Below are positions 1-12,011 of a stretch of DNA of 12,011 nucleotides, piece by piece. The first letter of the stretch is position 1, and the number at the start of each line of letters is the position of its first letter. The notes beneath the pieces are model-generated. The model worked only from the letters and a program-made list of their open reading frames with translations. It was not told the origin of the DNA and made no database searches. The translations under genes were made by a program, and so were the position numbers. Where the stretch lies: the NCBI GenBank assembly GCA_022361095.1, contig JAKSBO010000515.1, positions 1 through 12,011 of the forward strand, written 5' to 3'. This stretch comes from Desulfobacterales bacterium. Its GTDB lineage: Bacteria > Desulfobacterota > Desulfobacteria > Desulfobacterales > Desulfobacteraceae.

Positions 1-3000
1 CCTGGATACCTTCGGCATCGGTGGCGCACAGGGAGACCGAATAGACACCGGCATTGGTGTAGGTATATACCGGATCGGCATCCCCAGAGGCATCTCCGTT
101 TCCGAATGTCCATGCATAGGTGTAAGGTTCGGTACCGCCGCTCACGTAGGCGGTGAACCCGACCTCGGCATCATGGGTGGTCACGGTATCGGGAGAGGCC
201 GTAAAATTCACACTGAATCCGGTGGAAACTTTGCGCACCACCCGGACATTGTCCACACCGATACGCGCCCCATCCCCGCTGCCGGTGCCGGTGGAGGTAT
301 AACGAAACGCCACATAGACAATGCCTGAGTAATCGCACAGATCAACGGAGACCTCTTTCCAGTCGTCATAGTATTCGGCGTCAAATTCAACCGTAACCGC
401 ATCCCAGGTAAAGGCGTCATCTGCGGGATCACTTTCACCGTCATAATCGGTGGAGATCATTACCTGCAGAGCCGGGCCGCCGTATTTATGGTAATGGTCA
501 AAAACCAGGTCTGAACATTCAGAAGGAGCCAGCAGCACGGCAGGTGAAATCAACCAGTCATCACTGGCCGTATCTGCACCGTATCCGTTGGCCACCGCGC
601 CTTGTTGGCCTGCCTGCTCTTGAAGTATCCAGTCGGCATCGCTGGCCGCACTGAATACCGTAAAGCTTGAGGCGGAGATCAGGTCCTGGTCAAAATCTTC
701 GGACAGGTAAGAGACCTGATTGGCCCGGAACTCAAAATTGTCGATTTCCCATACACGGCCGTCACCTGATCCCGTTCCCGTGGAGAGGTATCTGAAGGCC
801 ACCCGTGCAGCAGCGGGCTGGATTACGATGTCATCCACCCCGATGCGGGCCCCGTCTCCGGAACCTGTGCCGGTGGAGGTGTAACGGAAGGCCACGTAAG
901 CGGTGGCATCCCCATCAAAGGTGTGGGTCAAAGAGACATATTTCCATGCGTCGTAAATATCATCATGGGAAACGGCGGTGCTGGTCCAGGTGTAATCATT
1001 GGGATTACCGCTGCCTGGGTAATCGGTGGAGACCATCACCTCAAGTTCCGGACCGCCGTATTTCCGGTACAGGCTGAAGCTGATCTCAATTTCAGCCTTT
1101 GCGCCCACAGACAATGCCGGAGAGATCAGCCAGTCATCGCCGGCCTCATCCGCACCAAATCCGTTGGCCACGGCCCCAATTTTATCGGCGCGTTCTTCAA
1201 TCACCCAGTCGGCATTGCTTGCCGCACTGTAAACTGTGAAATTGCCGAATTCACCGTCATCAAAATTTTCAGCGGCCAGATCAAAGCTGAGTTGCCCGGT
1301 GGTTTCAAAGGTGTAGCTGCCCGTGGACGGCATGGCGGCCCCCATCCCAAGCCAGTGGGCGTCACCGGGATCCGTGTGTAGGTCAGGGTCGTAGTTGTCG
1401 GAGACCAGCACCTGGATTTCAGGGCCGCCGTAGTTGTATGCCAGGTCAGCAGTCACGTATTCATCTTCATAGGCATACAGGTTTAAAACCGGTGAAATGA
1501 GCCAGTCATCACTGGCCTCATCTGCCCCGTACCCGTTCATTTTGGCCACCATGCCGTCATCCCCCATGTCGTAGAAGGACCAGGAAACGTCGGAGGAGAC
1601 ATCCACAGTGGTGAACCGGCCAAAAGATCCGGTATCAAAAGTTTCCGAATAAACCAGCGGGGTGGATGCGCTTTGCGTGGTTACCGTTAATGTGTTGCTG
1701 AACCCGGAGAGGCCGGCCGAATTATATGCACGAATCTTATAAGAATATTCAGTGCCTTCGGAGAGCATGGTATCTTCATAAGTCCCGGTATCCGCTGCCA
1801 GAGCGGCTTCGAGAATTCCCCAGGCACCGTCTGATCCGGCCTTGCGCCACAGCTCAAAGCCCACTTCATCATCGGCATTATCCAACCAGCCAAGATTCAC
1901 GGTGGCGGTGCCAAGCCCGGTGTCGGCAAGGGTAGCGGGTGCCAGGGGTGCCGTACCCCCGGCATTGGATGTGACGCCGTAAAGCACCATGTCAAAGCTG
2001 ACGTCGGAACTGGCGGCGCTTGCCTGGTGTACTTCCACGGCAATGGTGTTGGAACCGTCGGTTAAAAGGGAGGCATCCAGGTTGTAGGCATAATATTTGG
2101 TTTCATCCCCGGCATCATTGGCCTTGGTGGTATAGGTGATATCCCCGTCGGGCATTGAAGATCTCACAGCTTCGGTGCCGTTGATATAAACCACAGCACC
2201 GTCGTCCCGCAAAAGCATCAGCTTGAGCTGAATGAGTTTGGACGCATCCTCCACGGTAACGGATTTACGAAAATAGGTGGTGATATATTTATCATCTTTA
2301 TCCGGGCCATAGCCGACCACGGTGGTTTCATCGCCGTCACCATACCCCAGTTGCCCTGCACCCTCAGACCATGCGGAATCATCAAATGAGGGATCAACCC
2401 AGTTCGAGCCCTGGTCCGACCCGTCATCCAGGTATTTCCAGGTATCGCCGGTACCCACATAAATGTTGTTATCCACCAGTGCCCCTGCAAACAGGGTTTC
2501 TCCTGCGCTCAGTGTCACCACTTTACCGGCCAGCGGATTCCAGAGGATCGTGTCAAGCCCGTCGGGCAGGGCAAATGCATCGGCATCCTGGGCATCCTGG
2601 GTCAGGGCCGCCACATCATCCATCTCATACCCCAGTGCCGGGTTGCCGTCGGCATCATACTGCCCGAATTTCACGGTACGGATGTATATGTTGGCGGGAT
2701 CGGCCTGGATCAGCTTGAACTGCCAGAAGGAGTCCGAAGACAGGGTCCAGGGCTTGTCATCGTCATTGGGCCGGTGGGGGGCACCCCAGGAACCTTCTCC
2801 AATGAACATGGTGCCGCCGGCATCATCCCGGACAAAGCTTTCAAAGCTGCCGGCGTTGTCGGACGGGGCCAGGGGATAGGTATATTTAACCAGATGGGAA
2901 TCACAGTCAATGACCAGGTCCATGCCGTTGTCGTACATGGTCCGGGCCCAGGCGCCGATTCTTCCCGTGCCTTCGGATTTACCGCTCTGGTGGGGCCGCA

Positions 3001-3856
3001 TGGGCCGGTGGAACTGGCCGATTTTCCAGGTATAGCCGGAATTGGCCGCCAAATCGTTGGCAAACCAGTTGGCCTGGGCGTTCCACTTGGTATCGTCCTG
3101 GCCGGTAAACGCACCGTATCCCACACCCGGTTCAAGTTCGGTATTCAAAGAGTAGAGCCGCATCATGGTGCCGCCCACGCTTGCTGCATAGTAGGCATCG
3201 GCATTGGGCATGTTGAAGATCAGTTGAACGAATTCAGTCATATCATTTTCATGGTTGCCGTGGGCCGGGATCACGGGGTACATGCGGTTGTCCGGAGAGA
3301 TGGTATACTGCCAGTCATCCAGCCACTCACGCATTTCATCGTTGGTACAGTCATCATGGTAATCCCCGCCAAAGGCCACGAACAAAGGCCGCAGCTTGGA
3401 CACCAGGGTGTTGCCCCATTGCCGGGGCTCCTGGTGGGTCCTTGAATCCCCGCCGGATATAAAGGTAACGGGTTTGGGTGTGTCCGGCGCGGTTTTAAAC
3501 CAGTAAATGGTATTGTCGCCCCGGGAATCATAGGTCCTGAAATAATAGACCGTATCCGCCTGCAGGCCTGTAAGGTCGCAGAAGTAGCTGACCAGGGGGC
3601 CGCCCTCTGCACTTGCGGTGTTGTCATAGGTCCGGGTGATGTCCACAACCTGGGTTGTGTAGGTGGTCAACTCCGGGTCGGTACCATATTTAACGCCAAA
3701 GGCATCGCCCGATGTCTGGCACCACCCGATGGTCATGGTCGTGGCCGGATCAGATGTCCAGGAAAGCCTGTACTTGTCACTGGCGGCAAAGGAGCCTTGG
3801 GTGATCCCAAGCACCGCAAGCCCCAGCAGCAGGCCTAAAACCAATCTTAACTTCAT
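1..3856 (-). CDS. Secreted multidomain metallophosphoesterase (purple acid phosphatase-like), 3' end outside window
   Basis: An uninterrupted reading frame of 1285 codons runs from ATG at 3856 off the left edge, so the C-terminus is missing. AGGGGA at 3864-3869 (complement) is a well-placed ribosome site. Residues 1-25 are a signal peptide (KLR, then a Leu/Gly-rich core, SFAA). Residues 28-123 resemble the FnIII-like N-domain of purple acid phosphatases. Residues 130-395 are a calcineurin-like phosphoesterase: GGDSR (135-139), GGDY (163-166), GNHE (200-203), FHRP (282-285) and CDSH (318-321). Residues 462-628 form a jelly-roll-like domain (DTWKYLDDGSDQG, then AWSEG and QLGYGDGDE). Residues 634-728 are FnIII. 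Residues 738-1207 hold choice-of-anchor-J-like repeats, and 1213 onward is a PKD domain (YAWTFGNGD). The protein is probably exported and hydrolyses phosphoesters outside the inner membrane; the substrate is unknown. The usual GHxH motif reads CDSH. It is divergent from the chelatase operon, with no evident functional tie. Confidence 0.88.
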   Translation of the reverse strand, partial: MKLRLVLGLLLGLAVLGITQGSFAASDKYRLSWTSDPATTMTIGWCQTSGDAFGVKYGTDPELTTYTTQVVDITRTYDNTASAEGGPLVSYFCDLTGLQADTVYYFRTYDSRGDNTIYWFKTAPDTPKPVTFISGGDSRTHQEPRQWGNTLVSKLRPLFVAFGGDYHDDCTNDEMREWLDDWQYTISPDNRMYPVIPAHGNHENDMTEFVQLIFNMPNADAYYAASVGGTMMRLYSLNTELEPGVGYGAFTGQDDTKWNAQANWFANDLAANSGYTWKIGQFHRPMRPHQSGKSEGTGRIGAWARTMYDNGMDLVIDCDSHLVKYTYPLAPSDNAGSFESFVRDDAGGTMFIGEGSWGAPHRPNDDDKPWTLSSDSFWQFKLIQADPANIYIRTVKFGQYDADGNPALGYEMDDVAALTQDAQDADAFALPDGLDTILWNPLAGKVVTLSAGETLFAGALVDNNIYVGTGDTWKYLDDGSDQGSNWVDPSFDDSAWSEGAGQLGYGDGDETTVVGYGPDKDDKYITTYFRKSVTVEDASKLIQLKLMLLRDDGAVVYINGTEAVRSSMPDGDITYTTKANDAGDETKYYAYNLDASLLTDGSNTIAVEVHQASAASSDVSFDMVLYGVTSNAGGTAPLAPATLADTGLGTATVNLGWLDNADDEVGFELWRKAGSDGAWGILEAALAADTGTYEDTMLSEGTEYSYKIRAYNSAGLSGFSNTLTVTTQSASTPLVYSETFDTGSFGRFTTVDVSSDVSWSFYDMGDDGMVAKMNGYGADEASDDWLISPVLNLYAYEDEYVTADLAYNYGGPEIQVLVSDNYDPDLHTDPGDAHWLGMGAAMPSTGSYTFETTGQLSFDLAAENFDDGEFGNFTVYSAASNADWVIEERADKIGAVANGFGADEAGDDWLISPALSVGAKAEIEISFSLYRKYGGPELEVMVSTDYPGSGNPNDYTWTSTAVSHDDIYDAWKYVSLTHTFDGDATAYVAFRYTSTGTGSGDGARIGVDDIVIQPAAARVAFRYLSTGTGSGDGRVWEIDNFEFRANQVSYLSEDFDQDLISASSFTVFSAASDADWILQEQAGQQGAVANGYGADTASDDWLISPAVLLAPSECSDLVFDHYHKYGGPALQVMISTDYDGESDPADDAFTWDAVTVEFDAEYYDDWKEVSVDLCDYSGIVYVAFRYTSTGTGSGDGARIGVDNVRVVRKVSTGFSVNFTASPDTVTTHDAEVGFTAYVSGGTEPYTYAWTFGNGDASGDADPVYTYTNAGVYSVSLCATDAEGIQ
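236..1645 (-). repeat. Choice-of-anchor-J-like domain repeats, apparently one nested inside another
   Basis: Within the large secreted protein, a module of about 150 residues recurs. Each copy has an FD..F start, the motif GADxASDDWLISP (GADEAGDDWLISP in copy 2), a YGGP segment followed by VxVSxxY, and, in complete copies, a C-terminal AFRYTSTGTGSGDG stretch. Copy 1 (residues 738-857, bases 1286-1645) stops before that C-terminal stretch. Copy 2 (862-1013, bases 818-1273) is complete. An extra orphan C-terminal stretch (1015-1046, bases 719-814; AFRYLSTGTGSGDG) follows copy 2. Copy 3 (1052-1207, bases 236-703) is complete. The order fits copy 2 being inserted into copy 1, just before its last strands. 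Such beta-sandwich domains are common in secreted adhesin-like and enzyme proteins; a binding role is inferred. Confidence 0.7.
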
Positions 3857-4167
3857 TTTCTTTTCCCCTTTTGTAAAATTACGTTTTCTTTAAATGTAAT
3901 CAAACGCACTGCTTCCTATCCGGAAACACAAAATAGCGTGAAAACAATAGAGGGGAATTAGGTAAATATTAAAATTACACCCCGGATATTATGAGACGGT
4001 TAACATACTGCTCATTAAATAGTGTCCGACCGAAAATCCCGGGTTTGGTTAGTTTTTTGTTTAAACCCGTATTTCTCATCAAACCCGAATGTTTCTGTGA
4101 TCTTCTCAGTCGTCAAACTGAAAAGACCGACCTGTAAAACTTAACCTAAGATACCCGAGGATATAGC
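3857..4167. other. Divergent intergenic region between the phosphatase gene and the chelatase operon
   Basis: This 311-bp AT-rich stretch separates two genes that point away from each other, so it must hold both promoters and no terminator is expected. I could not assign a convincing -35/-10 pair on either strand. No cobalamin-riboswitch B12 box and no clear Fur-type 19-bp palindrome were seen. ATTAC at 3879-3883 and GTAAT at 3896-3900 form a short interrupted palindrome close to the phosphatase start. The chelatase gene has GAGG at 4157-4160, seven bases before its ATG. The most structured part is the hairpin at 4040-4069, listed separately. Confidence 0.6.
4040..4069 (+). promoter_or_regulatory. 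Possible leader hairpin with a second competing arm upstream of the chelatase operon
   Basis: CGGGTTT at 4040-4046 pairs exactly with AAACCCG at 4063-4069 across a 16-base T-rich loop. A second AAACCCG at 4081-4087 could pair with the same left arm, which would give two mutually exclusive stems about 80-100 bases before the ATG at 4168. This could be a transcribed leader that controls the operon, or simply a repressor site with repeated half-sites. No run of U follows either stem, so it is not a standard intrinsic terminator. The regulatory role is inference. Confidence 0.3.
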
Positions 4168-7100
4168 ATGCATTGGACCGTCTCCTGCGGCAGGCAAAAA
4201 ATAATATACTTCGCAGCGCTTCTTATAGGGGCATTCGCGTCAACATTTTTGCCGGGGCCTAGGGCTGCAGTCCAGGAAGCCGGGAGTTTGAGCCCTGCCA
4301 AGGCGGAATTCAGGATCGGGGTGATCGGTATGGCCGGCGGTGCGGTTGAGGCCATGTCCGAAGCACGGGAGAGATTGAACGTAAATATACAAAAGGTTGA
4401 ACCCGGTGCCTTTGCCGCAGACCCGCTGCCGGACCTGGCCGGCTTTGATCTGATTTTTGTCTCGTTTGCCGCAGGTGATTATAAGGATAACTATAAGCGT
4501 GCTGTTGTGGCCGCTAAAAAGAAAACCCCCGGCTTAAAGATATTTTGTGTGGGCCCGCCCCATCTGTACCAGAACTGGGCGGACTGGATCGGTCCTGAAA
4601 ATGTCATCCTCGATAAAAAAATGGCGGCCTATTACGGACTCTCCCGGCAATCCATGGGCGACATGGTCCAGTTCGCACTGGTGAACTATTTTGGCAGAAA
4701 GGCCACAGTGCCAAAACCGGGCCAGGGAAAACCGGTGCGTATTTACCACCCGGAATACGGGCAGCCGGCGTCGGTTAAACAGTTTTTTGAACAGGCCGCC
4801 CAGGCGGGCTGGGACATTGAAGCCACCCCGCGTGTGGTGATCGGCTCCTGGCGGCACCATGTGCTCTTCCACCAGCCCCAGGTGATCCGGGCATTAACGG
4901 ACGGATTGAAAACCCAAGGGATTTTATCGGTGTGCCTGGTGGCCGATGATCCCAAATTTCGGCAGCACTTGATCGAGTTTAAGCCGGATCTGGTGATCAT
5001 GACCTCCCATACCCGGGAATCGGCGGATTTCTGGAAAACCCTGAATGTGCCCAGGATCCATGCCCTGTGGTTCACCGAAGCGTCCATTGCCCAATGGGAG
5101 ATCAACAACCGTCCCGGCATGAGCGTGGGCCGCCAGGTGCACCAGATCACATCGGCTGAACTCAAAGGCGCCACAGAGTGCCTCACTTCCGGGGGCACAA
5201 AATCAGGGCATGACAGCGGCGAACAGATTGTTCCCATTCCCGATCGCATTCAACGCATCTGCGGCCGGGCCAAAAACTGGATCGACCTTGAAAAAATGCC
5301 CAATGACCGGAAAAAAATCGCCCTGGTCACCTATGACCGGGTAGCGGACAAACTCAGCCTGATGAGCGGTCCCCACCATTGCCTTAACGCGCCCAAAAGC
5401 ATGATGCTACTGCTCGAACGCCTCAAAGCCGAAGGGTACACCACCGCCAACCTGCCCGCCGATGAAACCGAACTGCTGGACCGGCTGATCGACCATGGGC
5501 GCCAGATGGGCACCTGGGAGCCGGCCGTCCTGGATGCCCTGGCCCAAAGCGGCAAAGCGGTGCTGATCCCCTTGGAAACCTACAAAAAATGGTTTGAAAC
5601 CAAGGTGCCGGAATGGCGCCGGCAGGAGGTGGTCAAACATTGGGGGTCCCCGCCGGGCAACCTTATGATGTGGGCGTACAGCGGCCGGAAATACCTGGTC
5701 ATTCCCCGGCTGGACCTCGGCAACCTGGTGCTGCTCACCCAGCCCCCCAAGGGCGAGGCATTGACCGCCACCACAAAAAAAGAGATGGAAGAGACCATTT
5801 TACCGCCCACCCACCACTATCTTGCCACCTATTTCTGGCTCCAGGAGGAATTTAAAGCCGATGCCGTGGTCCATTTCGGCTCGCACGGCACAGAGTGGCT
5901 CTTTCCGGGAAAGACGGCGTTTATGTCAAAAGCGGACTGGAGCGATATCCTTTTGGCAAACATGCCCAATATCAACCCGTGGCTCTCCAGCAACATTGCC
6001 GAACATACCCCCTGCAAGCGGAGGGCGTATGCCGTTACCCCGGACTTCATGCCCCCGCCCCTGATGGACGCGGATCTGCCCGAAAACCTGTTGAATATGG
6101 AATCCGCCATCACAAAATACCTGGCCCTGGATGAGGGGGCCCTGAAAGCCAAATTTGCCGACACCATCACCGAACAGGTGAAATCGAGTAACCTGGATGT
6201 GGAATGGATTATCTCTTCCGGGGAGAAGGATCTCTCCGTACGCCTGGAAAAACTGCGTTCCATGGCCGGATTCACCCTCAATGAAGCCCAGATCAAACGG
6301 ATCAGTGTTTACCTGCATGACCTGAAAAACCAGCAGATTCCTTCGGCCATGCACACATTGGGCAAGGGGCCGGACGATAAACTGCTGATCCCCTATATTG
6401 TCCAGTGCGCAGGGAAACGCTTTACCAGGGCCCTGGCAGGGTTGGCACCGGACAATGCATCGGCTGCCGGAAATGGGGATGCCCCGAACAACCCAATGCG
6501 CGGCAAAGCCGTTGAAGTCCTGGATCTGATTCTGCACAGCGGGTTTTCCAACATGGAGGCCGTTAAAGGTGCAGGGCTGACAGTGGCGGACAAAAAGCTG
6601 CCTGAACCGGTGCACGAAGGGCTTGAACTTGCCCGGCGGCTGTACAAGGAGATGAGTGATCCCAAAATGGAGATGGAGAGCATCATCAATGCCCTGGACG
6701 GCAAATTCATTGTCCCGGGGTCTTCGGGCAGTCCCGAGCGGAACCCGGGTGTGATCCCCACCGGCAGAAACATGGTGGTGCTCAATCCCGCCGAACTGCC
6801 CACCCGGGCCTCCTGGAAACTTGGCACCCAATTGATGAAAACCTATCTGGCCAACGAATTAAAGGCAAAGGGGCGTTACCCGGAAAAAGTCGCCTTTTCC
6901 CTGGTGCCCTATGCCACCTACAGTGATTACGGGATCACGGAGTGCCAGATTTTGTACCTCATGGGGGTACGTCCTGTGTGGGATACAAAGAACCGGGTGC
7001 GGGATGTGGCATTAATTCCTGCAAAGGAATTGGGACGGCCCCGGATTGATGTTTTTTTGTCCGCCCGGAGCGTTTACAGAGAAGAGCTGCCCTCCCTGAT

Positions 7101-8298
7101 GACATTCATGGACAAGGCGATCCGGCTGGCCGCCTCCCACAAGGAAGAGGACAATTATCTCTACCGGAACAGCCAGGCCATCCAGTCAGCGCTGATGGCA
7201 TCGGGCCGGTCTGAAAAAACCGCCCAAGCCCTTTCTTTAGCACGTATGTTCGGCGCGGAAAAGGACGAAATCCAGGACAGCCACAACTGGTTCTTTTACC
7301 TGGCCGACCGCACCGGCGAATGGGACTCCCGAAAGGATCTTCTGGACGTATACCTCAAGTATTGCAAGCATGTGTACACCAAGGGCCACTGGGGTGAAAG
7401 TGCGCCCCAGGCCTTTGACCAGGCCATCCAGGGCACCGAATCCATTATCAGGAGCTGGTATGACAGCCGTGATTTTGCCCTGGGAAATAAATTTTCCTGG
7501 TGGGTGGAAGGGATGATCTCTTTGGCCGTCAAAGAATCAACCGGTAAAGAACCGGACTACCTGTACATGGATGTACGAAATCCGGATAACGCAAAGATTG
7601 TCCGGGCCGAAGATGCCGTAAAAATGGATCTTAACGCCCGCCTGCTCAATCCAAAGTGGATAAAATCCTTGATGAAAGAGGGGTATGCCGGGGCCACGGT
7701 GCTGGCCAAGGATACCGGCAACCTCATGGGCTGGGAGATCACCCGGGAGAATACCATCACCGGCCGGGACTGGCAAACGGTGACCGATGTCTATGTAAAA
7801 GACAGCTTTGATCTGGGACTTTTCCAGTGGTTTGACAAACATAACCCCCATGCATTCCAGGATATCACGGTGACCCTGCTGGAAACCGTGAGAAAGGGAT
7901 ATTGGCAGGCGGATGAAAAGACCCTGGCGCAGATTGTTCAGGCCTATGCCCGGTCTGTTGTGGATCACGGCACAGGCTCGGGCATCCGGGCAGGGGGCAA
8001 TGAAAAACTTGAACAATTTGTAACCCGGCAACTGACAGCTCCGGGAAAGCCCGAACTCAATGCCCTGGCCGAACCCTTTAAAAGAAAGATCGCCCAAATG
8101 ACCCTGCCCCCGGAACAGGCCCGGGGCGCGCAGCAGGTGCAGGGGAAAAAGATGGTGCATGAACAGATGGAAAAACCGGATAAGACCAAGCAAGAGAGTC
8201 ACGCCGTTCATGATCAAATGATGCTGTACATCATTGCACTGGGCATACTGGCCATTATCCTGGCCGGGTTCATTGTTAAAGGGATAAGGAAAAAATAA
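4168..8298 (+). CDS. hmuS-like: CobN/HmuS-family chelatase, membrane-anchored (cobaltochelatase subunit CobN-like)
   Basis: This 1376-residue protein belongs to the CobN/BchH large-subunit chelatase family, which inserts or removes metals in tetrapyrroles. Family marks seen: KKIALVTYD near 382, WGSPPGN near 492, HFGSHGTEWLFPGK at 569-582, NIAEH with CKRRAY from 609, IPTGRN at 863-868, GVRPVWD at 933-939, LGRPRIDVF near 955 and LNPKWIKSLMKEGYAGA near 1160. The N-terminus has a short basic stretch and a hydrophobic segment (about 12-28). The C-terminus has a transmembrane helix (about 1351-1371) followed by IRKK. By the positive-inside rule the large body lies in the periplasm, unlike cytosolic CobN. 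The start is supported by GAGG at 4157-4160. The next gene starts on the last base of the stop codon (TAATG). The downstream ExbB-like, DUF2149 and TonB-receptor genes match the Bacteroidetes hmu heme locus, so a heme-handling or dechelating role is favoured over B12 synthesis. No ChlI/ChlD or CobST ATPase gene is present. Substrate and direction are inferred. Confidence 0.9.
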   Translation: MHWTVSCGRQKIIYFAALLIGAFASTFLPGPRAAVQEAGSLSPAKAEFRIGVIGMAGGAVEAMSEARERLNVNIQKVEPGAFAADPLPDLAGFDLIFVSFAAGDYKDNYKRAVVAAKKKTPGLKIFCVGPPHLYQNWADWIGPENVILDKKMAAYYGLSRQSMGDMVQFALVNYFGRKATVPKPGQGKPVRIYHPEYGQPASVKQFFEQAAQAGWDIEATPRVVIGSWRHHVLFHQPQVIRALTDGLKTQGILSVCLVADDPKFRQHLIEFKPDLVIMTSHTRESADFWKTLNVPRIHALWFTEASIAQWEINNRPGMSVGRQVHQITSAELKGATECLTSGGTKSGHDSGEQIVPIPDRIQRICGRAKNWIDLEKMPNDRKKIALVTYDRVADKLSLMSGPHHCLNAPKSMMLLLERLKAEGYTTANLPADETELLDRLIDHGRQMGTWEPAVLDALAQSGKAVLIPLETYKKWFETKVPEWRRQEVVKHWGSPPGNLMMWAYSGRKYLVIPRLDLGNLVLLTQPPKGEALTATTKKEMEETILPPTHHYLATYFWLQEEFKADAVVHFGSHGTEWLFPGKTAFMSKADWSDILLANMPNINPWLSSNIAEHTPCKRRAYAVTPDFMPPPLMDADLPENLLNMESAITKYLALDEGALKAKFADTITEQVKSSNLDVEWIISSGEKDLSVRLEKLRSMAGFTLNEAQIKRISVYLHDLKNQQIPSAMHTLGKGPDDKLLIPYIVQCAGKRFTRALAGLAPDNASAAGNGDAPNNPMRGKAVEVLDLILHSGFSNMEAVKGAGLTVADKKLPEPVHEGLELARRLYKEMSDPKMEMESIINALDGKFIVPGSSGSPERNPGVIPTGRNMVVLNPAELPTRASWKLGTQLMKTYLANELKAKGRYPEKVAFSLVPYATYSDYGITECQILYLMGVRPVWDTKNRVRDVALIPAKELGRPRIDVFLSARSVYREELPSLMTFMDKAIRLAASHKEEDNYLYRNSQAIQSALMASGRSEKTAQALSLARMFGAEKDEIQDSHNWFFYLADRTGEWDSRKDLLDVYLKYCKHVYTKGHWGESAPQAFDQAIQGTESIIRSWYDSRDFALGNKFSWWVEGMISLAVKESTGKEPDYLYMDVRNPDNAKIVRAEDAVKMDLNARLLNPKWIKSLMKEGYAGATVLAKDTGNLMGWEITRENTITGRDWQTVTDVYVKDSFDLGLFQWFDKHNPHAFQDITVTLLETVRKGYWQADEKTLAQIVQAYARSVVDHGTGSGIRAGGNEKLEQFVTRQLTAPGKPELNALAEPFKRKIAQMTLPPEQARGAQQVQGKKMVHEQMEKPDKTKQESHAVHDQMMLYIIALGILAIILAGFIVKGIRKK

Positions 8299-8906
8299 TG
8301 CCCGTGTTAATGGAGATACTGTTCCAGATCACCATGGTGCTCAAAATTCCTGTGGTGGTCTGCCTGTTATTGCTCTTTGCCGTTATCCTGTTTGAAACCG
8401 GCATGTTCCTGCACGAATGGGTCAATCGCAGGGCCGGGTCCGGGCAGTGGGAAGCATTTCAGGATGAATTGATCGCAAGACAGACCGATCCGGTGCGGAT
8501 GCTGGAAACCCTGTCCGAAAACCGGCAGATCTGCCCGGAAACAGTGGCGGCCTTTTTGGAAAAGGCAGGCGAACACCCTGAAAATCCAGCCTACCTGGAC
8601 AAGGTCTTTACGGATGTGGAGATGGAAGCGGCCCGCAGGTGCCGGCTGGTGCAGCTTGGGGTGCGCCTTGGCCCGGTACTGGGGCTGATGGGGACCTTAA
8701 TTCCCATGGGGCCTGCCTTAATGAACATTTCAACGGGCAACCTTGAAACCATGGCCCAAAACCTGATTATGGCATTTTCCACCACCGTGATCGGACTTTT
8801 AACCGGCTCGGTCTGCCTGGTGATCCTGGTGGTGCGCCGGCACTGGTACAAGATGGATATTGCGTTTCTCGACAACCTGTTTCAGCAGATCTGCCCCGGG
8901 GGATAG
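8298..8906 (+). CDS. MotA/TolQ/ExbB-type proton channel protein (HmuU-like)
   Basis: This 202-residue inner-membrane protein has three predicted helices: about 9-38, 117-143 and 155-180, with a cytoplasmic domain between the first two. RLGPVLGLMGTLIPMG (123-138) is the signature of the MotA/TolQ/ExbB family, and AFSTTVIGLLTG (159-170) matches the third helix. Thr133 and Thr162/163 fit the channel-lining threonines of the family. An acidic residue equivalent to the ExbB third-helix glutamate is not visible; Met158 falls there by eye. Its ATG overlaps the chelatase stop by one base (TAATG), which indicates translational coupling. By analogy with ExbB/TolQ it would form a proton-conducting oligomer with the next gene product. 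It probably powers the chelatase or the nearby TonB-dependent receptor; which one is not shown by the sequence. Confidence 0.88.
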   Translation: MPVLMEILFQITMVLKIPVVVCLLLLFAVILFETGMFLHEWVNRRAGSGQWEAFQDELIARQTDPVRMLETLSENRQICPETVAAFLEKAGEHPENPAYLDKVFTDVEMEAARRCRLVQLGVRLGPVLGLMGTLIPMGPALMNISTGNLETMAQNLIMAFSTTVIGLLTGSVCLVILVVRRHWYKMDIAFLDNLFQQICPGG

Positions 8907-8908
8907 CC

Positions 8909-9298
8909 ATGGTGACACCGCATTATAGAACAAGACGGTCACGCCGTAAACGTGCATTGTCTCAAAGCGATGCCGATGATCCCATGTCCGGTGTGGCCAA
9001 CCTGTTTGACGTGGCCATGGTATTTGCCGTGGCACTGATTTTAGGCATTTTCCATGTCCTGAACATTCCGGAACTGCTTATGGGGGCGGATGACGTCACC
9101 ATCATAAAGAACCCGGGCAAAGCCAATATGGAGATCATCCAAAAAAATGGGAAAAAAATGGAAAAGTACACCATGACCCGGGAGGATGCCGGGGGCAACG
9201 GGCGGCGGTTAGGCGTGTGCTACAGGCTGGAAGGCGGCCAGATGGTCTATGTACCGGAACCCCCGGGGACAGCCGGAGCAAGCCATACCGATAATTAA
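8909..9298 (+). CDS. DUF2149 protein with ExbD-like topology (HmuV-like)
   Basis: This 129-residue protein starts two bases after the previous stop, with GGGGGAT at 8897-8903 as its ribosome site. A very basic N-terminus (RTRRSRRKR, 7-15) precedes DPMSGVANLFD (24-34) and one transmembrane helix (about 31-53). A soluble C-terminal part of about 70 residues follows, which should face the periplasm. The DPMSGVANLFDVAMVF segment is typical of DUF2149, a family found beside CobN-like and ExbB-like genes in Bacteroidetes and methanogens. FDVAMVFAVALIL lines up by eye with the ExbD/TolR segment IDVMLVLLIIF, placing Asp34 where ExbD and TolR carry their proton-binding Asp. I infer that it is the ExbD partner of the upstream channel protein. 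The soluble domain is short and otherwise unrecognised. Confidence 0.82.
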   Translation: MVTPHYRTRRSRRKRALSQSDADDPMSGVANLFDVAMVFAVALILGIFHVLNIPELLMGADDVTIIKNPGKANMEIIQKNGKKMEKYTMTREDAGGNGRRLGVCYRLEGGQMVYVPEPPGTAGASHTDN

Positions 9299-9301
9299 GC
9301 T

Positions 9302-9310
9302 AAGGAAGAG
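9302..9310 (+). promoter_or_regulatory. Ribosome binding site that fixes the receptor start
   Basis: AAGGAAGAG lies 5-13 bases before ATG 9315. The reading frame extends upstream to another ATG at 9249, but that one lies inside the DUF2149 gene and would place 22 polar residues ahead of the signal peptide. The start at 9315 gives a normal export signal, so it is preferred. Confidence 0.75.
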
Positions 9311-9314
9311 AATA

Positions 9315-11348
9315 ATGAATGGAAGATGGAACCTGATCCTTTTAATTTTTGTCTGGCAATGTTTCAGTATGAATGCCTGGGGACAAGACGCTGATAAAGT
9401 AGAAAACACTGAACTTGAGTCCATGACGATTATCGGGGCGCCTGCGGCCCCGGAAGCGGTGGAGGTTTCAAGCCGTTTTTATCTTCCGGAAAGCGTGGAA
9501 GCCGTCCAGACCCTGACCCGGGAAGATATCGAGGCCATTCAACCCCGGGATGTCACAGACCTGATCGAGTACTCCCTCGGCATGAACATGTGGAAACAAG
9601 GTGCCCGGATTCATACCTTTTCCTTCAGCCGCGGGGATGAGGTCAGCGTGATTCTGGACGGGGTCTACCTGACCTCAAACGAGGCGCGGCGCATGATTTC
9701 AGATATACCGGTGGAGATGATCGATTCCATTAAATTTGTGCGTGACGCATCGGTGATTACCATAGGGCCCTTAATGTCGTTCGGCTCTGCATCGGCAGGG
9801 TCCCCCAACCAAGGCTTCATCATCATTGAAACCCGGAAAAAAGGGCCGGACACCCAATACGGCACCCAGCTCCGGGCAAGCTACGCGTCCCATGACACGT
9901 TTAAAGCCTCGGGGGTCACCGGCCAGTCGTGGCAGGACGATAAATTCACCTTCAGCGCAGGATATCAGCGGACCCAGAGCCAGGGAAGAGACGGGTGGAA
10001 TAACGGGTATACCGGGGATACCTTGCTTTTGAACGGCGGTTTTAACAGTGATGCACTTCTGGCAGGCGTCTCGCTTTATTACAACACGGCTGAAAGAGAG
10101 ATCCAGCGCCACGAGAGCATCTATACCGGAGAGCTGAATGAAAATGCCTGGGAATACGATCCCATCGACACCCTGCTGATCTCCATCAATCTGACCCGGC
10201 CCTGGAATGAACACCATGCCACCTCGCTTACCTATGGCTGGAACAGAACCGAGTGCACGCGATATATGTATAAAACGACCATTGATAACAATACGGTAAC
10301 CGGCGAAGATGCCGAAGACAGCTCCCGGGAGTGGAACCTGATCCACTCCATTGCCACAGACCGCAATACCTTTAAGATCGGCGCGCAGATGGTCCGTTGG
10401 TATTACCTTCTTGAGGGCTATACCTCCGCGCGTGAGGAAGAGATTTACGGGGCATATGTCACCGATGCCTATAAGCTCAAAGCGTGGTGGTCCATGGATG
10501 CGGCCCTGCGGGTGGATAAAAAGAAAATTATTCAGGGGGGAGATACATACCTGTCCAACGGAACACAGGTAAAGCTGTCCGACGGGGAGTGGACCGATGA
10601 GGCCTTTGTGGCTTCCCTGGGCAATGCCTGGCAGATCAATCCCAAATGGAAACTGACGGCGCGCTATTCGTTTAATTTAACACCGACGCCGGATGTGCTG
10701 ACAACCGTTGATGATTCCGAACTGCCCGATGAACAGCGGCACCGCTGGGAAGTGGGAGTGGCAGCCGATTTCAACAAGGCCGTCCGGGTCTCGGCAACCC
10801 CGTTTTACTATAACATTAAAAACGCCAAGGTTTCGGCGGGAAAAATCAGCACGGATGCCAATGGTGCTCCCATCCTTGATCCGGTTACCGGAGATCCCAC
10901 CGACGTGACGGTATATGATTCACAGAACCGGGAACTGTACGGTTTTGAATTGAGCATTAAGGGCCGCTTTTACAAGGAGATCCTGGGATATGAACTGGGA
11001 TGGACACATTTCGTGGACACCGAAGAGGATGGGATCAATGGTACCGAGAATCCTGAAAACAAATTCAGCGGACGTCTTAACTGGCGGTATGGTGGCTGGC
11101 GCAGCGACCTGACGGTGCTTCACGTCGGGCCCTATTCAAGTTACGGATACACTGTGGGGGATTTCACCACGGTGAACTTAAGTGTCAGCCGGACGATGTT
11201 CAATGATGTCAAGGTTACCCTTTTTGGAAAAAATATCACGGATGATGAATACGCAACCAACAACAAAGGATTTCCCACGTTTGCCCAATGGGGCTGCCTG
11301 CGTGATGTCGGGGCCGCTTACGGTGTTGAAGTCAGCTATAGTTTTTAG
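9315..11348 (+). CDS. TonB-dependent outer-membrane receptor (HmuR-like position)
   Basis: This 677-residue outer-membrane protein starts at ATG 9315. Residues 1-23 are a signal peptide (NGRW, then a hydrophobic core, ending near AWG). SMTIIG (36-41) looks like a TonB box. The plug spans about 57-176 (AVQTLTREDIEAI, then GARIHTFSFSRGD, VILDGVYL and IIIETRKKG). The rest is a 22-strand-type barrel ending in LFGKNITDDEYATNNKG and a terminal Phe, as expected for BAM-assembled proteins. It takes up a scarce ligand across the outer membrane using TonB energy. I did not find clear FRAP/NPNL heme-receptor boxes, so the ligand is not settled; heme, another metal-tetrapyrrole or a cobamide are candidates because of the adjacent chelatase. 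The 16-base gap after DUF2149 indicates the same operon. TonB itself is not encoded here. Confidence 0.92.
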   Translation: MNGRWNLILLIFVWQCFSMNAWGQDADKVENTELESMTIIGAPAAPEAVEVSSRFYLPESVEAVQTLTREDIEAIQPRDVTDLIEYSLGMNMWKQGARIHTFSFSRGDEVSVILDGVYLTSNEARRMISDIPVEMIDSIKFVRDASVITIGPLMSFGSASAGSPNQGFIIIETRKKGPDTQYGTQLRASYASHDTFKASGVTGQSWQDDKFTFSAGYQRTQSQGRDGWNNGYTGDTLLLNGGFNSDALLAGVSLYYNTAEREIQRHESIYTGELNENAWEYDPIDTLLISINLTRPWNEHHATSLTYGWNRTECTRYMYKTTIDNNTVTGEDAEDSSREWNLIHSIATDRNTFKIGAQMVRWYYLLEGYTSAREEEIYGAYVTDAYKLKAWWSMDAALRVDKKKIIQGGDTYLSNGTQVKLSDGEWTDEAFVASLGNAWQINPKWKLTARYSFNLTPTPDVLTTVDDSELPDEQRHRWEVGVAADFNKAVRVSATPFYYNIKNAKVSAGKISTDANGAPILDPVTGDPTDVTVYDSQNRELYGFELSIKGRFYKEILGYELGWTHFVDTEEDGINGTENPENKFSGRLNWRYGGWRSDLTVLHVGPYSSYGYTVGDFTTVNLSVSRTMFNDVKVTLFGKNITDDEYATNNKGFPTFAQWGCLRDVGAAYGVEVSYSF

Positions 11349-11581: not shown

Positions 11582-12011
11582 TCAGGGAATTCCGGGGAAT
11601 TTTTTTATTATGAGTTCCATCGGTATGAAGCGAATACCGTTATAACACTGCTCTTTTGCTTTAATTTTAAAGCCAAGCCGTTTATACGAAGGAACTGCGT
11701 TTAAAGACGAATTGACCGTTAGCTTGCCTGTATCGATTTTTTTGGCAGAAATTATAGAAAGCGCCTCGTTAAACAACGCTTTGCCATACCCTCTTTTTTG
11801 ATATTCAGGTTTTACAAAAAACATGGAGATATGACAATATTCTTTAATTTCGATGATGCCGACAGCTTGTTGTTCCTGATAGGCAATTATAGTAAACGTA
11901 TCGGCTTTTGATCTTTCGGCCAAACTACTTTTATTTGCATATTTATAAAATTCTTCAACCCCTTCTTGGGTATAATCTGAAGCAACACTTTCATCAAAAG
12001 CTTCTTTGACG
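11582..12011 (-). CDS. GNAT-family N-acetyltransferase, N-terminus outside window
   Basis: The frame stays open from the stop at 11582-11584 to the right edge, giving 143 codons, so the gene is cut at its 5' end. A TTG at 11921-11923 is in frame but is not the likely start: the frame continues upstream with normal GNAT N-terminal sequence (VKEAFDESVASDYTQEG, then EEFYKYA). The core acetyl-CoA-binding motif is FVKPEYQKRGYGKALF, containing the Q/RxxGxG/A signature. Further GNAT marks are VGIIEIKEYCHIS and, near the end, AVPSYKRLGFK. It transfers an acetyl group from acetyl-CoA to an unknown amine and is probably cytosolic. Three 60-base lines counted by hand are about 37% GC, well below the operon, which suggests a different origin. 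No link to the receptor system is seen. Confidence 0.85.
   Translation of the reverse strand, partial: VKEAFDESVASDYTQEGVEEFYKYANKSSLAERSKADTFTIIAYQEQQAVGIIEIKEYCHISMFFVKPEYQKRGYGKALFNEALSIISAKKIDTGKLTVNSSLNAVPSYKRLGFKIKAKEQCYNGIRFIPMELIIKKFPGIP

Follow-up and report, generated by a model that had tools for sequence, protein, structure and literature searches.

Soluble class I chelatases, such as CobN-CobST and ChlH-ChlID, are cytoplasmic enzymes driven by AAA+ motors. A membrane-anchored CobN-like type has already been published as BtuS/HmuS (PMC6460266, PMC13227078). In the hmuYRSTUV loci of Bacteroidota, this chelatase is encoded together with the ExbB-like protein HmuU, the DUF2149 protein HmuV and a TonB-dependent receptor. 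Comparable clusters have been published outside Bacteroidota: (i) PA1922-PA1925 of Pseudomonas aeruginosa, a cluster of genes for a receptor and for CobN-like, ExbB/D-like and DUF2149 proteins (PMC4542158, PMC9431628), and (ii) the cobN-receptor region of plasmid pSZ77 from Geobacter (Trichlorobacter) lovleyi, for which the authors identified no CobS or CobT homologues (PMC3403914). Here, we describe a four-gene cluster from the window, that is, the entire 12,011-base contig C979 of a 5.2-Mb Desulfobacterales draft genome from a family of sulfate reducers, and refer to its genes as S (chelatase), U and V (counterparts of HmuU and HmuV) and R (receptor). We propose, with a probability of roughly 55%, that S, U and V form one unit, a periplasmic class I tetrapyrrole chelatase or de-chelatase that is anchored in the inner membrane and driven by the proton motive force via an ExbB/ExbD-like stator made of U and V, with R importing the chelate.

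The list of open reading frames (ORFs) and a Pfam scan of six window proteins bear out the preliminary description of this locus as an operon of genes for a CobN-family chelatase, an ExbB-type channel, a DUF2149 protein and a TonB receptor in the order S-U-V-R, place and strand included. All four genes lie on the plus strand. S (4168..8298, 1376 aa) is a membrane-anchored class I chelatase of the BtuS/HmuS-like type (PF02514 CobN-Mg_chel, 805.8 bits with a cut-off of 24.5), U (8298..8906, 202 aa) is an ExbB/MotA-like channel subunit (PF01618 MotA_ExbB, 37.9 bits, cut-off 22.9), and V (8909..9298, 129 aa) is a DUF2149 protein (PF09919, 106.4 bits, cut-off 27.1). U and S overlap by a single base, the final one of the S stop codon, and V begins two bases past U. 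The ORF of R, a TonB-dependent receptor (PF07715 Plug, approximately 38.2-38.3 bits, cut-off 23.9), overlaps V as listed (9249-11348); the alternative ATG at 9315 gives a hydrophobic N-terminus and is probably the start, yielding a protein of 677 aa (9315..11348). The identical order S-U-V-R occurs in the complete genome G004 of the same genus, where the four proteins are 91, 91, 84 and 87% identical to those of the window, respectively; therefore, the gene set is not an assembly accident. Window-type S was found in just two of the 19 genomes of the genus searched, namely its own and G004. The complete hmuYRSTUV set is not matched, since the cluster consists of S, U, V and R only: by gene order, neither HmuT nor HmuY is encoded between or beside them, in agreement with the preliminary description, no search having been aimed at either one in the window or the genome.

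S is not a biosynthetic CobN but a membrane-anchored chelatase that is sister to the Bacteroidota HmuS. Its best match among solved structures is HmuS 9d26 (E 1.4e-117), and it is the sole CobN-family match in its own draft genome. In a 62-row tree, S and six relatives are sister to a 14-row HmuS clade including 9d26, with a support of 99 by the Shimodaira-Hasegawa-like approximate likelihood-ratio test (SH-aLRT); in a 45-row tree, the same 21 rows lie on one side of a branch with support 100, which agrees with the hmu-like kinship claimed earlier. Soluble CobN (including 7c6o) and ChlH are placed elsewhere. Both trees come from a short search with SH-aLRT as the only support measure, and the smaller one omits 17 of the 62 rows, three as long or isolated and fourteen for thinning. 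The relatives of S belong to a deltaproteobacterial metagenome-assembled genome (MAG; locus L070, 55% identity), to Planctomycetota (L071, L072 and L076, 41-43%) and to Lentisphaerae (L112, 33%), all others scoring at most 514 bits; L073 from a gammaproteobacterial MAG and L118 from Planctomycetaceae are partial clade members recognized by motif. The order S-U-V is kept in all seven.

By hydropathy rather than a dedicated predictor, S has an N-terminal or signal hydrophobic segment at approximately residues 12-30 and a C-terminal one at approximately 1352-1370, with maxima of 1.86 and 2.86, respectively. The C-terminal segment is a general feature of V-linked S, defined as S ORFs longer than 1100 aa that have a co-oriented V no more than 3.5 kb away. 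It was found within the last 90 residues in 62 of 64 such proteins (one Desulfospira locus is counted twice in the hydropathy set, as L046 and L122), and the remaining two end at the contig edge. Among 14 S proteins without such a V, eight soluble CobN-like ones have no C-terminal hydrophobic segment, three have one, and three end with the examined stretch. Soluble CobN and ChlH share with S the large-subunit family of class I chelatases and the HxGxHG motif but have no U-V, and the eight CobN-like rows examined have no hydrophobic anchors. The pattern [EQ]Gxx[ML] precedes the C-terminal helix in 32 of the 64 tails, compared with 0.19 expected by shuffling; it was picked post hoc with kinship uncontrolled, and we give it no weight.

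The distribution of these genes suggests that U-V serves S rather than the receptor. Of 242 genomes sampled from the order, 34 have a V that scores over the cut-off, and 33 of these encode a chelatase (Fisher p 5.7e-27, a value that ignores relatedness); in 31 of the 33, V and the chelatase gene share a contig and are at most 10.1 kb apart. In the only exception, the DUF2149 gene (G058:C106:32304-32528) has an internal stop, and the 7.7 kb examined there contain neither S nor U. Weaker DUF2149 matches in two more genomes were left out of the 34, one of them with a partial chelatase match (G172) and the other with none (G225). A first scan of genome contigs for window-type relatives with the two 91%-identical sequences found nothing, and the two motifs drawn were poorly conserved. 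A scan of genome contigs with a DUF2149 alignment gave at least 587 stretches, 273 of them confirmed, from which the best 80 were kept, so that more distant V loci are unrepresented. Among these 80, 17 loci have no S in the stretch; 13 of the corresponding genomes encode a chelatase, and the four with none are all MAGs. The contig stops 0.7-1.4 kb past V in L087, L098 and L101.

Archaea account for 39 of the best 80 loci, with S in 25 of the stretches and a receptor in none; for the 14 archaeal loci without S in the stretch, a chelatase is encoded elsewhere in 11 genomes. In ten archaeal genomes, which are the cultured-type records among the 39 loci and all contain U-V-S, we found neither a plug domain nor ExbD, while the same searches found both in five of five bacterial genomes. 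The archaeal clusters (Methanosarcinaceae, Methanomicrobiaceae) resemble the window in having ExbB-like, DUF2149 and membrane-anchored chelatase genes adjoining, but differ in that their S has no D-H-xx-E motif, mostly showing NDD, and in five rows lacks the HFGxHG histidine. The S-U-V linkage is seen with and without an outer membrane, and a setting outside the usual Bacteroidetes one, as the preliminary description put it, was an overstatement in view of these archaeal loci, of the 34 genomes of the order with V and of the published clusters. Co-conservation of the four genes does not extend equally to all of them: S, U and V are inherited together, while R is not co-inherited with them. The S, U and V proteins of the window share 55, 42 and 61% identity, respectively, with those of L070, and they also align with those of L112. 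For R, the best match that the clade offers apart from G004 has E 0.014. The receptors of L070 (a 458-aa piece) and L112 are encoded upstream of S, and neither can be aligned with R.

U contains the conserved motif GPxLGLMGTLIPMG...AFxTTVxG. V has one helix followed by short strands; Asp34 in the helix is invariant, as is the whole stretch N31-L32-F33-D34 in 37 rows, and an AlphaFold model of V places a helix at residues 25-50 (mean predicted local distance difference test score 66.8). DUF2149 is the sole Pfam match of V, the ExbD family PF02472 being unmatched. By position, V may be ExbD-like, and kinship of HmuV to ExbD has been reported (PMC10100974).

These data are consistent with the following mechanism. 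R would carry a metal-tetrapyrrole or a related chelate across the outer membrane, powered by the ordinary TonB-ExbB-ExbD system of the cell. S, facing the periplasm, would bind the ligand at its head/neck interface, where His281 corresponds to His254 of HmuS, and would take out or exchange the metal in the cleft formed around His573; uptake of the released metal would fall to another transporter. By analogy to the action of ExbB-ExbD on TonB, U-V would use the flow of protons to move S by way of the membrane helix of S, the stator thus replacing the cytoplasmic AAA+ motor (CobST, ChlID) of soluble class I chelatases. The preliminary description also considered a periplasmic chelatase or de-chelatase driven by the proton motive force, and the archaeal loci, the V-chelatase co-occurrence and the membrane anchor of S favor such a possibility. 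More tentatively, and with somewhat less than even odds, DUF2149 and its ExbB-like partner may be the dedicated motor, driven by the proton motive force, of extracytoplasmic class I chelatases in bacteria and archaea, a third powering mode besides CobST and ChlID, with the window clade having a rebuilt, one-sided metal site and hence a new tetrapyrrole or metal-chelate substrate. In titles and abstract openings, with most subscription journals outside the search, we found no published statement of a chelatase powered by an ExbB/DUF2149 pair, which is no proof of absence. If a stator does drive the chelatase, this would account for the power source of metal removal from tetrapyrroles in a compartment without ATP, and DUF2149 would gain a function. 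The reassignment of HmuU/HmuV from the receptor, as published, to the chelatase is directly testable.

According to the first alternative, the locus is an ordinary hmu system, in which S is a functional heme de-chelatase, orthologous to HmuS and supplying iron from heme. The sister position to HmuS favors this explanation, as do several retained residues. His538 and His1209 have been proposed as the facing metal-side residues of HmuS, the H538A mutant being inactive (PMC12583661). S contains HFGSHG (residues 569-574; 5872..5889, plus strand) in place of HFG(T/A)HG of HmuS, with Ser at the T/A place and His573 aligned with His538; this residue is His in all seven clade rows covering the position. 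The counterpart of Glu577 is kept as Glu612, and His573 and Glu612 are both present in all seven clade members covering both. The counterpart of His254, His281, lies in HTR (HGR in HmuS) and is His in six of six covering clade rows and in 9 of 12 HmuS-clade rows. Furthermore, the heme receptor family TIGR01785 TonB-hemin is the top-scoring one for the receptors that neighbor S in L070 and L112, although the scores stay below its cut-off.

The other half of the HmuS site is different. In an ungapped alignment, residues N1107-K1108-F1109-S1110-W1111-W1112 of S (7486..7503, plus strand) correspond to L1207-D1208-H1209-V-Y-E1212 of HmuS; the window sequence at the HmuS motif LSLDHxxEFMGG is LGNKFSWWVEGM, with neither His1209 nor Glu1212 present. 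Replacement of D1208 by K, of H1209 by F/Y and of E1212 by W/Y characterizes eight of nine clade members, whereas D-H-xx-E is retained in all 12 HmuS-clade rows. The Lentisphaerae protein L112, basal in the clade, retains N-H-H-V-Y-E, and therefore the motif change looks derived. The Met79 counterpart is Ala101 in S and A/L/V in the six clade rows covering the position, although five of 12 HmuS-clade rows lack Met79 as well. Two further changes are common to the window, G004 (L033) and L070: Ser1067 is replaced by Arg, and His506, which is His in 75 of 76 rows outside the clade, by Glu or Asp. In the region of the HmuS methionine-rich insertion, S has five Met among 105 aligned residues, HmuS-clade rows spanning 1-17; since the B. 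finegoldii numbering shifts after the insertion, just positions up to 577 and Met counts were used from that alignment. Judged by its residues, S is not HmuS proper, and the label of heme de-chelatase does not simply transfer. Because Met79 and D-H-xx-E are lost, the heme-iron function earlier suggested from likeness to HmuS cannot carry over to S. With HmuY and HmuT also missing from the cluster by gene order, we consider an ordinary hmu system unlikely, though still a serious contender. The window clade, with members in Desulfobacterota-type bacteria and Planctomycetota, instead offers a naturally altered active site, which makes the role of the second metal ligand testable.

The second alternative is the published model, assigning HmuU/HmuV to the receptor and TonB (PMC10100974, PMC12583661); in the window, U-V would then act as the ExbB-ExbD pair energizing R, with TonB encoded elsewhere and S alone in the periplasm. 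This model agrees with the MotA_ExbB family of U and with the presence of receptors in the vicinity of S-U-V, seen in 19 of 28 Bacteroidota loci and in all three Thermodesulfobacteriota loci. It does not readily account for the ten archaeal genomes with U-V-S and neither plug domain nor ExbD found, nor for the finding that 33 of the 34 genomes with V also have a chelatase, nor for the divergence of R while S, U and V remain alignable. No receptor was found near S-U-V in four of four Planctomycetota loci, two of them short; the receptor profile used for loci was home-made from ten seeds, with uncalibrated sensitivity, and many loci were short. In pSZ77, U-V-S adjoins a separate exbB-exbD-tonB set. 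The own genome of the window has 24 plug and four ExbD matches, and therefore R has other possible energizers. Taken together, these observations make the energizing of R by U-V a rather improbable function.

Apart from the published assignment and the receptor neighborhoods in Bacteroidota and Thermodesulfobacteriota, several points weigh against the proposal that U-V drives S. Co-occurrence of U-V and S is no proof of coupling, and the ten archaea searched belong to two related families. V is found without a chelatase in three of the 14 archaeal genomes and in one Prevotella MAG. Conversely, a chelatase occurs without V in 17 of the 242 genomes; some of these are soluble CobN, two are membrane-type S ending at the contig edge (G071, G130), and one is S without V in the adjoining 2.6 kb (G151). 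The comparison of V with the ExbD profile was not significant, two of 30 shuffles scoring higher, though the Asp aligns in register, and no structure of meaningful similarity emerged from a fold search with the model of V. Heterologously expressed HmuS of B. theta turned over heme with NADH, and therefore HmuS need not have a stator; HmuU and HmuV are named once each in that text, in an operon figure (PMC12583661). The second proposed metal-side His is replaced by Phe in S, and therefore S may not remove metal at all. Finally, five archaeal V-linked S proteins (L074, L081, L090, L102 and L142) have no His538 counterpart, and therefore V-linked S proteins are not all HmuS-like enzymes.

The substrate is not readable from R, since a search of solved structures with R gave nothing at E up to 1. 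No barrel family was matched by R at E up to 10, and its sole NCBIfam match, TIGR01786 (hemoglobin/transferrin/lactoferrin receptor family), scores 29.7 bits, far below the cut-off of 323.75. A heme-like metalloporphyrin is our first guess, and a doubtful one. Related modules occur among cobalamin genes on pSZ77 (PMC3403914), near nikR and ABC genes in Azospirillum, where the cluster is S-U-V, and under Zur control in P. aeruginosa (PMC4542158, PMC8531726, PMC9431628), and therefore heme does not define this kind of module as a whole. A third alternative regards the locus as a metal-scavenging relative of PA1922-PA1925, its ligand being a zinc, cobalt or nickel chelate. The P. aeruginosa cluster has the same gene set, a likeness of gene content with the PA1923 sequence outside the comparison, but its receptor comes first by locus number and it is controlled by zinc. 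In a tree without PA1923, L151 and L153-L155, which are chelatases from proteobacterial plasmids, group in a clade apart from the window, and this explanation appears quite unlikely. The pSZ77 locus has U-V-S with receptors, like the window, but its chelatase (L152) belongs to another clade and it includes a DUF2162 gene.

About equally small is the chance that S has lost its metal chemistry and binds tetrapyrroles as a carrier or sensor. Such a role would fit the Phe/Tyr at one of the two proposed metal-side positions and the Trp/Tyr in place of its Glu partner in eight of nine clade members, but His573 and Glu612 persist in all seven covering members, and the conservation of the motif change across phyla suggests a selected function. 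A biosynthetic cobaltochelatase CobN for vitamin B12, indicated by the family-level PF02514 annotation only, can practically be dismissed, given that S has hydrophobic anchors, lies outside the clade of 7c6o and soluble CobN, and scores under the cut-offs of all nine NCBIfam CobN/BchH families matched, and that CobT (PF06213) was found in neither of the two genomes searched, both of which have the anaerobic chelatase family CbiK. Thus, S does not cluster with biosynthetic CobN, and the absence of an ATPase partner noted earlier stands as regards CobT, while CobS, ChlI and ChlD lay outside that search. On the whole, the preliminary description is partly supported.

Several related modules show variations of their own. 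In the archaeal S proteins L074, L081, L090 (10854-15194), L102 and L142, the HFGxHG histidine is missing (FSI or similar, followed by a gap) and the other motif reads LEHP, LDHP or LDHS; these proteins may represent a branch of this module that has no chelatase function. A small membrane protein, by eye like that of the pSZ77 DUF2162 gene, precedes archaeal U-V in L082, L084, L120, L147, L087 and L149, and is a possible counterpart of HmuT; DUF2162 itself was demonstrated for L152 only. In the Planctomycetota loci L072 (4121-5161) and L076 (3446-4573), S is immediately preceded by a pseudopilin-like DUF1559 gene, and no receptor was found in the stretch.

The region upstream of S (3857..4167, plus strand) is common to S and a divergent phosphatase gene and is strongly conserved in G004, as seen in the alignment of the window with L033. 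It includes a stretch at 3990-4025 with GTTAACAT, conserved in the window and G004; no Rfam elements were found in the window at the gathering threshold. The divergent gene (2-3856, minus strand) encodes a secreted metallophosphatase with choice-of-anchor J and PKD domains, which is truncated by the contig start and is 79% identical in G004. The gammaproteobacterial L073 likewise has a metallophosphatase gene, located after V; no similarity to the phosphatase of the window was detected at E 1e-3. A GNAT acetyltransferase gene (11582-12010, minus strand) runs past the contig end. A further G004 locus, L034 (G004:C1:153000-172000), contains pieces of a broken second chelatase and an ExbB-like gene, adjoining a CbiK-family gene (G004:C1:161476-162189) and near a receptor plug (C1:166586), so that a class II chelatase lies beside the remains of a class I one.

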